64,000 nucleotides of DNA from Ferroplasma acidiphilum (GTDB taxonomy: Archaea; Thermoplasmatota; Thermoplasmata; Thermoplasmatales; Thermoplasmataceae): assembly GCF_002078355.1 (NCBI RefSeq), contig NZ_CP015363.1, forward strand, positions 248,001-312,000, read 5' to 3'. Of the stretch, positions 15,715 to 21,150 are shown piece after piece. A program made the position numbers and the translations under genes. A model generated the notes under the pieces. That model was given only the letters and a program-made list of their open reading frames with translations, was not told the DNA's origin and did no database searches. Numbering within the stretch: the first letter of the stretch is position 1; every line of letters begins with the position of its first letter.

Positions 15715-16455
15715 TTAGCGGGAGAGCTTGGACATTCTATCTACCATATTTGTTATATATCCATTTAAACCCGAATTAGCGATAAACACACCATCCTCTT
15801 CCCTGTCAACTGTCCACGGAACTACAAAATATCCATCATCCTGTATTTCCTTAAATTTTTTCATATATTCTTTTTTGTATTCCGGTAAGAATAATGAAAC
15901 GCCCATTGATTTCAAATCCTTGCAATCTATTTTTCCAATGTATTTTTCAGAATGCTGGTCATAATCAAAACCCAGCATGATAGTCCTGCTTAGCTCGCCC
16001 GCCCTCCTCAAGGCATAAGGGTCAAATGATATAATGCACACATGGTCTTCCATGCCCATGGATTCGACAACCTGCAGTGTATACTTAGTTAATTCATTTT
16101 TTACAAGGTAACCATCATCATGCACAGTTTTAAGCTCAACGAGAAAATATTTATCCCTGAATAATTTAAACAAATCACGCAATTTTGGTATATTCTGCCC
16201 CCTTACCATAATTCTGTCGATTTCAGCGGATTCAATGTTTTCTATATCCTTATCAATTGAGGCAAGCCTGTTAAGGTTAAAATCATGAATAATATATACT
16301 TCATTGTCGCTGCTGAGGTGAACATCAAGTTCCACAATATCTGTAAATTTGAAAGCGTTTTCAAATGATTCTATGGTATTTTCGACATATTCGGAAGGCA
16401 AACCTCTATGGCCCACAACCACAAAATTTGATTTAATGTAATCTCTTATATTCAT
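15715..16455 (-). CDS. Glycerophosphodiester phosphodiesterase
   Basis: Hydrolyses glycerophosphodiesters to an alcohol and glycerol phosphate, probably in lipid turnover. The 246-aa TIM barrel has the signature residues H16-R17 (VGHRG), E26, E43 and D45 (VELDVHL) and H58 (IIHDFN). A lysine-containing LVELK segment follows, and PWTVD near the C terminus is typical. There is no signal peptide, so it is cytosolic. It stands as a single gene about 80 bp from the mutase operon on the same strand. Confidence 0.9.
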   Translation of the reverse strand: MNIRDYIKSNFVVVGHRGLPSEYVENTIESFENAFKFTDIVELDVHLSSDNEVYIIHDFNLNRLASIDKDIENIESAEIDRIMVRGQNIPKLRDLFKLFRDKYFLVELKTVHDDGYLVKNELTKYTLQVVESMGMEDHVCIISFDPYALRRAGELSRTIMLGFDYDQHSEKYIGKIDCKDLKSMGVSLFLPEYKKEYMKKFKEIQDDGYFVVPWTVDREEDGVFIANSGLNGYITNMVDRMSKLSR

Positions 16456-16514: not shown

Positions 16515-16835
16515 TTAGAAATCGAACTTTTTAATTATTTTTTCGTTATAATAACTTGGATATGTATATTTTCTGAGCAATGGATAGTAAGTAAGATTAA
16601 ATTTTCTAAGAATTTCACGTACTTCCTTGGATGAATACGTTACATTAAACTCCTCTTCTATGTATTCTTGAATTTCGTGGACTGTGCATACCTTTTTATT
16701 TTCTACACAGTTCTTCAAGGCTATCATCTGGTTTTCATGTAATTTTGAAGGCCGACCCATGTATGTCCTGACCAAAACTCTCTTTTCTTTTCCATTTTCA
16801 ACTGATATTACAGTTTCTAATTGATTCTGTCCCAT
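16515..16835 (-). CDS. Small winged-helix protein like IS630 transposase N terminus
   Basis: A 106-aa protein whose residues 27-95 match the winged helix-turn-helix that begins IS630/Tc1-type transposases: a GRPSKL lead-in, a VHEIQEYIEEEF helix and a YSSKEVREILRKFNL recognition helix. The DDE catalytic half is missing; the next coding sequence downstream is the unrelated phosphodiesterase. It may still be a working gene: GGGTGA lies five bases before the ATG, and a TATA-like element sits inside a perfect palindrome at 16866-16881. Either a transposase remnant or a DNA-binding domain recruited as a regulator is possible. Confidence 0.65.
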   Translation of the reverse strand: MGQNQLETVISVENGKEKRVLVRTYMGRPSKLHENQMIALKNCVENKKVCTVHEIQEYIEEEFNVTYSSKEVREILRKFNLTYYPLLRKYTYPSYYNEKIIKKFDF

Positions 16836-18132: not shown

Positions 18133-18951
18133 ATGAAAGACAAAATGGAATTGCTCTGGAATAGCATTGTTAATTATTCTAAGAAAAATGGCTTTTCTCT
18201 ATATTACTCCACTGATGTGGATATAGTTATAAGCTTTGAATGGGACAAACATATGGGTGGTGCATCTAAATTCCTGAAAAATGCGAAGGATAGTGGGATA
18301 AAATCTCTTGTGCTTTCTGTTAAACGCTTTGAGGATGAGGATATGGATTGCTCCACCATAGATTGCAATAAATACAGGAACAAAATAGCTGAAATTGATA
18401 TTATGTACATATTTAACGATGTTGGCTATAAATATCATGATGAAGCTGACTGGTTCTCAGAACTTAACACATTCAACATAGACGACCTGCTGGAAGAGAA
18501 TGAAGAAAAGAAGGTACTGCCGCTTACCCGGGAAGTTAATGAGAAATCCATCGATTCCCTGGTGCAGGACATGATTCAATATTTCAACAATGAATTTCCA
18601 GATAGCTCAAATTATGACATGGAAGAAAATATGAGGACTTTCTGGCTGTACAAGGGAATAAATTTTGATTTCCCCGTGGAAAACGATTTAAAATTAAAAA
18701 TTGACAAGGTAAACCATGAGGCCCGCAGGAAGATAGAAAACAATAAAAAGTCTGAGGAAAGAGTGAAATTATTAAAATTAATACCTGCAGTTATAACCGA
18801 AACAAATGGGAATGAAAATGGAATTATAACACGTGAACAGCTTAAAAATTACTTATCTGACAAAGGCATAAAGGTACAGAACTCTAAAAATATAGATTAT
18901 ATGTATGAGCAGCTTCTAAAGCAACTCCGTATCCAAAATAAAAAATATTAA
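18133..18951 (+). CDS. Uncharacterised soluble protein
   Basis: I do not recognise this 272-aa protein. The N-terminal 120 residues look like a compact alpha/beta domain (VDIVISFEWD, SLVLSVKRF, IDIMYIFNDVG). A very acidic linker follows (about 118-130, DDLLEENEEKK). The remainder is charged and helical, ending in a stretch (ITREQLKNYLSDKGIK) that may be a small helical DNA- or protein-binding unit. There is no signal peptide or membrane helix. It follows the solute-binding-like gene after 60 bp on the same strand and may be co-transcribed. Its upstream bases include a TATA-like TTTTTATATTAG at about 18089. Confidence 0.5.
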   Translation: MKDKMELLWNSIVNYSKKNGFSLYYSTDVDIVISFEWDKHMGGASKFLKNAKDSGIKSLVLSVKRFEDEDMDCSTIDCNKYRNKIAEIDIMYIFNDVGYKYHDEADWFSELNTFNIDDLLEENEEKKVLPLTREVNEKSIDSLVQDMIQYFNNEFPDSSNYDMEENMRTFWLYKGINFDFPVENDLKLKIDKVNHEARRKIENNKKSEERVKLLKLIPAVITETNGNENGIITREQLKNYLSDKGIKVQNSKNIDYMYEQLLKQLRIQNKKY

Positions 18952-19323
18952 TTTATGTATTGTCTGTTAGAATACTTTAATCTGGATTTTCTACTGTATG
19001 TATCAAATTATATATAATTTCATTTTCAAATTGCAAATTTTTCTGAAAGAATTATACATAAAAGTATTAACACCGCAGAGTTTTGGATTGGAAAATATAT
19101 CGTAATATTAACCGGTTTAATATGTATATTATACTCCCTCAAATTTGCCATTTAATTAGCCTTTAACAAGAAATTGCAAACATCTACCATTTTTCTTTAT
19201 ATATAAAGGTATAATTTGTAATTATCATGACTAATTAGTCCTTTAAGCAATTAGCAAGAATAAAGACAAAACATATATATTATTCTATTTGCTTAACATA
19301 ATTAGTTAATTAGGTGAATTAAA
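18952..19323 (+). promoter_or_regulatory. Long upstream region of tes with TAATTAG repeats
   Basis: A 372-bp spacer without a gene. TAATTAG occurs four times: 19153-19159, 19232-19238, 19299-19305 and 19307-19313. The first two are part of a longer similar unit (TAATTAG, then CCTTTAA, then CAAG). Two TATA candidates are visible: the palindrome CTTTATATATAAAG at 19195-19208 and ACATATATATTAT at 19271-19283. The second would give a leader of about 20 bases containing the ribosome-binding site AGGTGA (19312-19317), six bases before the ATG. The repeats look like regulator sites controlling membrane-lipid synthesis, but no regulator is identified. Confidence 0.5.
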
Positions 19324-21150
19324 ATGGTATTGACAGAAGAAAGAAATAAGTCGGAAGTCAGATTGGCTAATGACTTTGAAATAAGTAGAAATGCACCATT
19401 CAAAACTGTAGATGAGTTTTTGAAGGGAATGGGCCATTTAATTACAGACGATATGCTTGTTTTAAGAGTAACAGAAAGCTTATGCCCCCTGTGTGCAGAT
19501 GAAGAGAAATTCGATCAGATGAGAATCCCCGCAATAGTATATGAAGAAGGCGGAGAAGTAGACCTTATAAAGGAATGCGCAGAACACGGAATAACAAAAG
19601 AAAAATACTGGGAAGACTATGATATGTACGAGGAGGCTAAGAAATACCAGGACAAAGAGGGAACAAAAATACTTAACCCCAACGTAGCAATATATGCTGA
19701 TAAAATTATATGCCCCACGCACTGTGGACTCTGTGTAAAGCATAAATCCCATACAGGATTGGGAAACGTAGTTATAACAAACCGCTGTGATTTATCATGC
19801 TGGTACTGTTTCTTCTACGCAAAAGAAAACGAGCCCATATACGAGCCATCACTTGACCAGATCAGGTTAATGCTCAGAAGAATGAGAAACGAGAAACCTG
19901 TTGGTGCAAATGCAGTTCAGATAACTGGCGGAGAGCCAACATTAAGGGATGATATAATAGATGTAATCAGAATAGCCAGGGAAGAAGGATATGAACATGT
20001 GCAGATGAACACAAACAGTGTCAGGGCCGCATACGATCCAGACTTTGTTAAAAGAGCCAGGGACGCAGGTTCAAACGTTGTTTACACAAGTTTTGACGGT
20101 CCAACCCCGAGATCAAACCCGAAGAATTTCTGGGAAATCCCTATGGCATTGGAACACTACAAACAGGCACCCATGGGTGTAGTTCTTGTACCTACAGTTA
20201 TTGGTGGAATAAATGACCAGTATCTTGGAGATATGATCAAGTTCGCAAAGTCAAACATGGACGTTGTAAGAGGAGTTAACTTCCAGCCAGTAAGTCTTGT
20301 TGGAAGAATGTCAGATCGTGCCAGAGCAAGACAGAGGATAACAATACCTGGTGCAATAAAGAAAATCGAGCAGCAGCTTGATGGAGCAGTTGGAAGGGAA
20401 GACTTCTTCACAGTTCCGGCAACAACTGATGTATCTAACTTTGTTGCAGCTCTGAAAGGACATCCAACATACAAACTGTCCATACACTTTGCATGTGGAA
20501 TGGGAACATACCTGTTCATTGACAACGACAAGATAATACCTGTAACAAGGTTTGTTGATGTTAAGGGAATGTTTGAATACCTATCAGAATTAGGAGATGA
20601 CATAAAATATGCAAAATGGCAGGCACCAAAGAAAGTGGAATCTGTAACCAAATTATTGCTTCACCTGAAGAAATTCGTTGATTACAGCAAAGCCCCGGAA
20701 GGATTCAAGCTGAAAGATATGGTATATAACGCCTTTACAGAAGGTGATTACCATGGTCTGAAAGCTTTCCATTATAAATCACTATTCGTAGGATTTATGC
20801 ACTTCCAGGACCCATACACATATGATGTTGACCGTGTGGAAAGATGTGATATCCATTATGCAATGCCTGATGGAAGAGTTATACCTTTCTGTGCATTCAA
20901 TGTTATACCTGAGCTGTACAGGGATTCAACACAGAGAAAGTACTCTATACCTGCAAATGTGTATGAACAGAAGACTGGATTTGACCTGAAGAAGGACAAA
21001 TACTTCAGAAAATACACAGTTGAAGAGAAGAAGAGGATCATAAGCTTCTATGAAAGAAGCCTTGGAAGAAACCTCACTTCAAAGGAAATAGGACTTGATC
21101 TGGACAAGGATGAAATACCAATGATTTCATCTGTAAACCCTGACCAATAA
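19324..21150 (+). CDS. tes: Tetraether lipid synthase (radical SAM)
   Basis: Radical SAM enzyme that joins the ends of two C20 chains, turning archaeol-type diethers into macrocyclic or tetraether (GDGT) lipids. The cluster-binding CDLSCWYC gives C155, C159 and C162; GGEPT follows at 202-206. Extra Cys sets fit the additional metal centres of the family: CPLC (54-57), C85, CPTHCGLC (130-137) and a C-terminal group with CDIHY and FCAFN. At 608 aa it has the size of Tes homologues in Methanocaldococcus and Methanosarcina. Codon use is skewed to AGA and GGA compared with neighbours, which suggests high expression. It is a single gene with its own regulatory region and terminator. Confidence 0.87.
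   Translation: MVLTEERNKSEVRLANDFEISRNAPFKTVDEFLKGMGHLITDDMLVLRVTESLCPLCADEEKFDQMRIPAIVYEEGGEVDLIKECAEHGITKEKYWEDYDMYEEAKKYQDKEGTKILNPNVAIYADKIICPTHCGLCVKHKSHTGLGNVVITNRCDLSCWYCFFYAKENEPIYEPSLDQIRLMLRRMRNEKPVGANAVQITGGEPTLRDDIIDVIRIAREEGYEHVQMNTNSVRAAYDPDFVKRARDAGSNVVYTSFDGPTPRSNPKNFWEIPMALEHYKQAPMGVVLVPTVIGGINDQYLGDMIKFAKSNMDVVRGVNFQPVSLVGRMSDRARARQRITIPGAIKKIEQQLDGAVGREDFFTVPATTDVSNFVAALKGHPTYKLSIHFACGMGTYLFIDNDKIIPVTRFVDVKGMFEYLSELGDDIKYAKWQAPKKVESVTKLLLHLKKFVDYSKAPEGFKLKDMVYNAFTEGDYHGLKAFHYKSLFVGFMHFQDPYTYDVDRVERCDIHYAMPDGRVIPFCAFNVIPELYRDSTQRKYSIPANVYEQKTGFDLKKDKYFRKYTVEEKKRIISFYERSLGRNLTSKEIGLDLDKDEIPMISSVNPDQ

Follow-up and report, generated by a model that had tools for sequence, protein, structure and literature searches.

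What sets the expression of tetraether lipid synthase (Tes) in archaea is the question raised by the intergenic spacer studied here. Tes makes membrane-spanning lipids that are connected with the ability of archaea to survive acid and heat; these lipids also underlie some paleotemperature proxies. A paper that identified Tes, in the portion of its text consulted, treats the coordination of the enzymes (geranylgeranyl reductase [GGR] is named) and the regulation of the mechanism as an open question whose answer would bring significant insight (PMC8941075). Open-access word searches listed nothing on a tes promoter, and no TrmB protein was linked to tes in the text that they returned from PMC4870337, PMC7285479, PMC13286277, PMC10138448, and PMC4463584.

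We analyzed a stretch of 64,000 nucleotides of Ferroplasma acidiphilum (contig NZ_CP015363.1, positions 248,001 to 312,000), referred to here as the window, in which tes occupies positions 19324 to 21150 of the forward strand. A preliminary description of this DNA proposed that the spacer ahead of tes, with its TAATTAG motifs, may be the control region through which tetraether content responds to pH and temperature. Our comparisons support this in part: the spacer holds a specific control region of tes, but its conserved unit is a predicted operator for a TrmB-family protein, here named TesR, and not TAATTAG. From sequence comparison we consider it likely that the tes upstream region is the binding site of this dedicated regulator, which would activate tes and repress its own gene.

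The tes gene and the TAATTAG copies of its spacer

The 608-residue radical SAM protein encoded by tes matches NF045702 with an E value of 8.7e-203 and 674.3 bits, against an equivalog cutoff of 450 bits, and carries two domains above cutoff, radical SAM PF04055 and an N-terminal zinc ribbon, PF23545. Tes of Ferroplasma acidarmanus Fer1 is 100% identical to it across 608 residues. The spacer measures 372 bp, a length that had been called unusual; among 274 other spacers in 464 kb of the same genome, taken as gaps between mechanically called open reading frames (ORFs) of at least 70 amino acids, 30 equal or exceed it.

TAATTAG stands on the forward strand at 19153, 19232, 19299, and 19307, as described earlier, and on the reverse strand at 19231, because the copy at 19232 falls in the palindrome ACTAATTAGT. 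These five copies compare with 0.13 expected from the rate in the 274 other spacers, none of which holds more than 2, and the tes spacer is indeed far richer in the motif than other spacers. The whole window contains eight copies, three of them outside the tes spacer, against 19.75 expected from whole-window shuffles, and the arrangement TAATTAG-N{0,3}-TAATTAG occurs once in the genome (1,826,943 bases). A related signal is kept upstream of tes in relatives, but TAATTAG itself is kept only in the nearest of them, and we rejected it as the functional unit.

Only one of the four forward copies, that at 19232, is contained in the conserved operator described below. At 19153, the TAG core alone is retained in an alignment with nine near relatives (alignment A1, 10 rows), and TAATTAGC at 19153 to 19160 on the forward strand is a possible isolated TesR half-site, ranking 180 of 463,517 positions when scored as an operator. 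The copy at 19299 is part of TAATTAGT (19299 to 19306, forward strand), at the predicted transcript start, where TTAGTT is invariant in the 10 rows; positions 19299 to 19321, ranking 67 of 463,517, are a possible weak third operator overlapping the predicted transcript start and the ribosome-binding site. The last copy overlaps the ribosome-binding site GGTGA (19313 to 19317) within 19307 to 19317 of the forward strand and reads TAATTAG in 4 of the 10 rows, all of which keep AGGTGAA there.

A fixed-spacing operator at Thermoplasmata tes promoters

All 61 genomes searched have tes. For the comparison of promoters we took the best 30 loci from these genomes and 80 of the 508 loci in a named collection; after identical upstream sequences were merged and truncated ones dropped, 78 rows remained, 74 of them from the Thermoplasmata. 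Rows were dropped for a truncated Tes match (L087, L093, L094, and L095), for having 29 bases of upstream DNA (L106), and for a truncated match or short upstream DNA (L079, L088, L105, L110, and L111). Four non-Thermoplasmata rows (L104 and L107 to L109), in which the fixed-spacing unit was not seen, are excluded from the 74-promoter counts.

With rows anchored on the best match to ACAAAA-N3-TTTTAATA, all 74 Thermoplasmata promoters show a WTTAGY-like half-site, nine bases, and KACAAA at the same spacing (score of at least 10 of 12), followed within a few bases by a TATA box. Variants of the half-site are AGTAGY, CTTAGY, TTTCGC, and NGTAGC. The anchor itself selects KACAAA, and the independent evidence is the TTAGY or GTAGC half-site, which stands 15 bp further upstream at fixed spacing and matches at 4 to 6 of its 6 positions among the matches listed. 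With one mismatch at most, the unit was found in 58 of 59 tes promoters; out of 283 other promoters from these loci, 2 have it, one of them being the tes spacer of locus L010 itself. ACAAAA in that arrangement was absent from the 283 other promoters tested, and we rejected it as a general transcription factor B recognition element (BRE).

The class consensus of the operator is the palindrome TTTGTAGC-N7-GCTACAAA, which immediately precedes the TATA box of tes. The block is palindromic in families f4, f5, and f6 and cleanest in the last two (for example, TTTGTAGT-TTTAAAA-ACTACAAA), with a weaker right half in some f4 rows; the f6 operator was matched blind at a contig end, and the next 32 residues resemble, by eye, the Tes N terminus. 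In family f1, which includes Ferroplasma, the left half is mostly degenerate, and the operator reads roughly TTATTAGC-N7-RCTACAAA. A number of f1 lineages have a second, distal operator at one fixed upstream offset. It occurs in 29 of the 74 tes promoters, against 13 matches over 378 other offsets combined; counted by clusters of upstream sequence it occurs in 9 of 27. The I-plasma group has an apparent tandem repeat of the unit, with six promoters at one offset and a 30-bp step, where unrelated offsets reach 5.

Predicted operators and core promoter at Ferroplasma tes

The Ferroplasma tes operator is a degenerate and duplicated form of the class palindrome. Alignment A4 (12 chosen rows) places two predicted TesR operators on the forward strand with their centers 33 bp apart: a proximal one, CAATTAGC-AAGAATA-AAGACAAA, at 19248 to 19270, directly upstream of the TATA box, and a distal one, TTTGTAAT-TATCATG-ACTAATTA, at 19215 to 19237, which holds most of the TAATTAG copy at 19232. 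The half-site CAATTAGC at 19248 to 19255, missing from the preliminary description, is better conserved than that copy. The tes site is the only place in the genome that matches WTTAGCN9KACAAA exactly, and the mirror copy of this pattern at tes is among 39 places with one mismatch. We rejected RCTAAT-N14-ATTAGC as a unit, since it is the inner half-site pair of two neighboring operators; genome-wide, with up to two mismatches, it occurs 242 times, against 306 for the reversed control, and is not commoner.

At the BRE position, ACAAAA (19266 to 19271, forward strand) overlaps the right half of the proximal operator and is invariant in alignment A2, whose 43 tes promoters are themselves anchored on ACAAAA. 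With at most one mismatch, ACAAAANNNTTTTAAT was found in 49 of 59 tes promoters and in none of the 283 others. The TATA box of tes, TATATATTA at 19274 to 19282 of the forward strand, occupies the aligned TATA position in both A2 and A1, and its position would put the transcript start near 19300. Of the two TATA candidates proposed earlier, the palindrome CTTTATATATAAAG (19195 to 19208, without assigned strand) is also present, and TAT-N-TAAAG is retained there in 10 of 10 rows of A1, but it lies outside the fixed operator-TATA unit, and the conserved arrangement includes only 19274 to 19282.

TesR, a candidate regulator of the TrmB family

In genome G206 and in Sysuiplasma, the operator adjoins a divergent TrmB-family gene, and the product of this gene, TesR, is the likely binder of the operator, judging by sequence and gene order. 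The gene tesR is head to head with tes in 40 of 40 loci that hold both on the fetched stretch; 34 of the 74 tes loci read among the matches to model R2 (below) have no TesR on that stretch. In the 40 divergent loci, where the operator was chosen as the best match to the consensus, 15 of the 16 half-site positions are 72 to 100% conserved and one is at 50%, with the spacer at 33 to 75%; next to the operator on the tes side stands A-N2-TTTAA, mostly invariant. At its tesR end, the operator reaches past the tesR start by a median of 1 base (range, −22 to +16, with start codons assigned by rule) and is positioned downstream of a TATA-like stretch.

When 61 genomes were searched with a TesR profile built from 26 proteins, 59 of them gave a single clear ortholog. 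E values lay between 1e-103 and 1.5e-59, the weakest belonging to a match divided between two contigs, and other TrmB proteins scored 2.5e-25 or weaker. G037, the sole f2 genome (86% complete), has neither TesR nor, by eye, a recognizable operator before its tes match. G039 (96% complete; tes at C1:53432-54925) has a perfect tes operator and no clear TesR, its best E value being 1.6e-22.

TesR of F. acidiphilum (237 amino acids) is encoded at 1299543 to 1300256 of the genome, outside the window and unlinked to tes, and an operator-like site covers the start codon of the gene. All 17 f1 tesR orthologs read have TAG...CTA around the start codon with the spacing of the operator, as in TTATTAGC-TATGGAA-GCTAAT, with part of the right half of the site being coding; TAGY...RCTA is found in 16, and two f1 genes show a paired change to TTATTAGT/ACTACT. 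No obvious operator was seen by eye at the tesR starts of families f3, f4, and f5 (13 loci).

The TrmB winged-helix domain PF01978 was found in 34 of the 34 TesR members scanned (A7), with an E value of 5.7e-21 and 74.6 bits in F. acidiphilum (gathering score, 25.6). The C-terminal TrmB effector domain PF11495 matches 26 of the 34 at an E value of 0.001 or below, and in F. acidiphilum the match covers profile positions 2 to 62 of 233 only. TesR of loci L430 and L420 scored 28.9 to 58 bits against the NCBIfam TrmB, TrmBL1, and TrmBL2 models, whose equivalog cutoffs are 500 to 650. An AlphaFold2 model of TesR (pLDDT, 91.7; pTM, 0.54) is consistent with a winged helix, a long helix, and an alpha/beta domain; it resembles TrmB (2f5t) over 127 columns. 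The nearest solved structures are TrmBL2 (Foldseek E value, 3.3e-15), TrmB, and then proteins of the phospholipase D fold such as NucT, Zucchini, and a bacterial phosphatidylserine synthase. TM-scores against the TesR query are only 0.28 to 0.45, which we read as two TesR domains loosely placed relative to each other in the model.

TrmBL2 (PDB 5bpd, 5bqt, and 5box) is the closest solved relative by profile as well (E value, 8.4e-20) and is similar in length, but it is 20 to 22% identical to TesR and is a chromatin protein according to its entry title, whereas the predicted TesR sites are few and specific. The consulted part of a 2014 review of the TrmB family (PMC4158304) describes several other systems with which TesR can be compared. 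TrmBL1 of Pyrococcus furiosus and Tgr of Thermococcus kodakarensis have, like TesR, a TrmB-family DNA-binding domain. Their operator is palindromic and, according to the gene, lies either ahead of BRE/TATA or where the transcript starts, an arrangement also predicted for TesR; autoregulation, likewise predicted for TesR, is listed for some family members. TrmBL1 and Tgr differ in acting on sugar metabolism through the TGM motif TATCAC-N5-GTGATA (PMC4158304). The TesR operator departs from that motif in sequence and spacer, its predicted targets are tes, S-adenosylmethionine (SAM) synthetase, and ferredoxin/GGR, and the protein has about 240 residues, compared with 341 in a family model. VNG1451C, the TrmB of Halobacterium salinarum, is a dual activator and repressor by position, as proposed for TesR, and its motif TACT-N7-8-GAGTA has a 7- to 8-base spacer, like the N7 of the predicted TesR operator; its response to glucose and glycerol, its motif, and its regulon are different (PMC4158304). 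Ptr2 of Methanocaldococcus jannaschii and TFB-RF1 of P. furiosus, likened here by description, are reported to activate through TBP or TFB from sites upstream of BRE/TATA and have targets other than those of TesR (PMC4158304). The family as covered in that part of the review acts mostly in sugar metabolism and in some cases in methanogenesis, and a member involved in oxidative stress was reported in 2022 (PMC9426492, likewise consulted in part). If our prediction is true, the family extends to membrane lipids.

Specificity of the operator and other predicted targets

R1, a sequence-only model of 43 family f1 promoters, including that of the window, was searched in 61 genomes and found the tes promoters of families on which it was not trained (8 of 8 in f5, 5 of 5 in f4, and, among the matches listed, 4 of 9 genomes in f3, with E values of 0.0036 to 0.26). 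Weak R1 matches at peroxiredoxin promoters (L245 and L263) and elsewhere were rejected as targets and are read as likeness of core promoters. R2, a model from 20 non-f1 tes operators, was run under strict filters in 200 genomes of the class and gave 99 matches with E values of 0.02 or below in 83 genomes and none in the other 117. By place, tes accounts for 81 of these (2 of them mirror-strand matches to a palindrome), SAM synthetase for 6, the interval from tesR to ferredoxin/GGR for 2, and other places for 10; 88 places were read, and 11 were assigned by coordinates or as mirror strands. Matches in f4, f5, and Sysuiplasma (f14) arise partly by construction, those in other families do not, and L436 is a repeat of L414. 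A good operator-TATA block was also seen at G053:C26:10824-10844 (L386), before a short, highly acidic ORF (MYIPKKKKKDYEEEYRD...).

Exact matches to KTAGYN9TACAAAA in genomes G044, G055, and G059 are found only at tes and SAM synthetase. Over 61 genomes, this pattern occurs 81 times, against 160 for the reversed control, and TTAGCN10ACAAA is no commoner than its own; given this lack of genome-wide enrichment of the unit patterns, either the regulon has few members or its sites are more degenerate elsewhere.

The half-site matrices used to scan the F. acidiphilum genome were trained on 55 f1 promoters together with 12 tesR starts, taken from related species that in some cases belong to the same genus. 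Training excluded five rows whose Tes is at least 98% identical, as well as tesR starts L501, L505, and L496, and retained same-genus rows at about 91%; the scan is a transfer test, not a blind one. It covered the window plus 20 stretches, each of 20 kb, one of them picked for holding tesR (464 kb; 463,517 positions). The best score was at 19248 (19.0 bits), followed by the tesR start (16.6), 19215 (16.0), and the next position at 15.0. A large TesR regulon in this genome was sought and rejected: R1 matches below an E value of 0.4 are at tes alone, and the exact right-hand unit occurs once. R2 gave no match in this genome at an E value of 0.02 or below, the Ferroplasma operators being degenerate, and a perfect-looking match at 573538 was rejected as falling within an ORF.

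The promoter of the SAM synthetase gene (NF003364) is the second recurrent R1 site, in 8 of 8 f5 genomes. Operator-type blocks were found there at L221, L227, L228, L229, L231, L248, L259, and L260 (f5), L414 (f26), and L425 (f9), ending about 24 to 47 bp ahead of the gene. In f5, the GTAGC half shares bases with the stop codon of the preceding gene, and its conservation could partly be coding. This distribution suggests that tes and the supply of SAM are under joint control in some families. In Sysuiplasma (L419 and L420), a tesR homolog is divergent from a ferredoxin-GGR operon, with the operator in between. At the SAM synthetase gene of F. acidiphilum (1336824), GACAAAAGGTTTAAA is present with no TAGY half 15 bp upstream, and at its ferredoxin-GGR pair (L517:16178-17459; ferredoxin start, 16178; GGR start, 16374), there is only the half-site TATGTAGC at 16160. 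We did not count a match that precedes a GGR-like gene of G008 (L375), whose product is only 29 to 31% identical to Sysuiplasma GGR, and no match of that type was found in other genomes among the matches listed. Families f1 and f4 (L293, L271, L273, L277, and L289 to L291) carry a different element ahead of the SAM synthetase gene, an AGTAAT or GTAAT repeat accompanied by ACAAAA and then a TTTAAA-like box; this element may be the site of another regulator. In the Cuniculiplasma proteome, according to the part of that study consulted, SAM synthetase is abundant and 20% higher in the cold (PMC7285479), an observation with no direct bearing on tes.

A model for the control of tes

Sequence comparison establishes the operator, its positions, the linkage of the genes, and the orthology of TesR. 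From these we infer TesR binding, activation or repression by place, leaderless transcript starts, and a signal to which TesR responds. In the proposed mechanism, a TesR dimer would recognize the 8-N7-8 inverted repeat TTTGTAGC-N7-GCTACAAA. The two Ferroplasma operators, with centers about three turns apart, would lie on the same face of the DNA, the proximal one abutting the BRE/TATA of tes, and bound TesR would most likely recruit TBP and TFB and activate the gene. At tesR, the operator would cover the start of a leaderless transcript, and TesR would therefore repress its own synthesis, the predicted outcome being a self-limiting switch of tetraether synthesis, with SAM synthetase and the GGR operon as further targets in some families. 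At tes, in the SAM synthetase promoters read, and at ferredoxin/GGR, the predicted TesR operator is followed by a TATA-like box, whereas at tesR it lies at the start of the gene; in f1, where the two genes are unlinked, both positions occur, upstream of TATA at tes and at the start codon at tesR. For TrmBL1, Tgr, and halobacterial TrmB, the consulted part of the family review states that a site upstream of BRE/TATA activates and one at the transcript start represses (PMC4158304), and by this rule we read TesR as an activator of tes and a repressor of itself.

The overlap of the proximal operator with ACAAAA at the BRE would also fit repression. TesR might sit on the BRE of tes and block TFB until released by a ligand, repressing tes as well as itself, much as TrmB represses sugar-transport promoters (PMC4158304, consulted part) and as the single operator serving both genes in divergent loci might lead one to expect. 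We think this unlikely, if plausible, as the split of positions between the unlinked f1 operators matches the published division between activation and repression. Were the palindrome bound by a different factor, with TesR a neighbor and mere target of it, the perfect operator of G039, which lacks a clear TesR, would be accounted for. That arrangement seems quite improbable given the divergent tesR in 40 of 40 loci, the DNA-binding domain in every TesR scanned, the operator-like site at unlinked f1 tesR genes, and the joint absence of TesR and a recognizable operator in G037.

Nor is it at all probable that the conserved block amounts to no more than a BRE and a TATA box, forming a strong core promoter within AT-rich DNA that has no specific regulator. 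The block does include ACAAAA and a TATA box, and peroxiredoxin promoters give weak R1 matches, but a core promoter would not explain the half-site at fixed spacing further upstream, the near confinement of the unit to tes promoters (58 of 59 against 2 of 283), or an operator at tesR downstream of a TATA-like stretch. The earlier proposal, under which the region senses acidity or temperature through TAATTAG-binding proteins, draws on the enrichment of TAATTAG in the spacer and on the adjustment of lipid ring number to pH and temperature by archaea (PMC10465181, consulted in part). It now appears improbable: TAATTAG is conserved only in the nearest relatives, and the other predicted targets, SAM synthetase and GGR, say nothing of pH. 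Under the preferred reading, pH or temperature is a possible signal upstream of TesR. The model is also compatible with a lipid intermediate or the status of SAM as the signal, and since SAM synthetase and GGR are predicted regulon members in other families, lipid or SAM homeostasis is at least as likely a signal as pH or temperature.

A more tentative extension, which we regard as doubtful as a whole, is that TesR is a homeostat of membrane lipids whose phospholipase D-like C-terminal domain binds a phospholipid intermediate or reports the supply of SAM, with a direction switch built on one operator. TesR would then set the transcription of tes, GGR, and SAM synthetase together. In head-to-head loci, the TATA-like TTTAAA that lies between tes and the operator would serve both genes, and TesR binding would turn the promoter from tesR toward tes; in Ferroplasma and its relatives, the two halves would later have become separated and the tes operator duplicated.

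With a named candidate regulator, an operator defined to the base, and a small predicted regulon in the Thermoplasmata, the regulation of tes becomes a testable question. The recurrence of operator and regulator within one archaeal class offers a handle on how cells set membrane composition.

Neighboring features of the tes locus

Immediately upstream of the spacer, positions 18133 to 18951 of the window encode a 272-residue protein with no Pfam or NCBIfam match, and some near relatives have similar-looking DNA at the position of the 3′ end of this gene. A winged-helix ORF on the reverse strand (16515 to 16835), about 2.5 kb away from tes, has a match to an IS630 transposase under the family cutoff and is perhaps the remnant of an insertion sequence.
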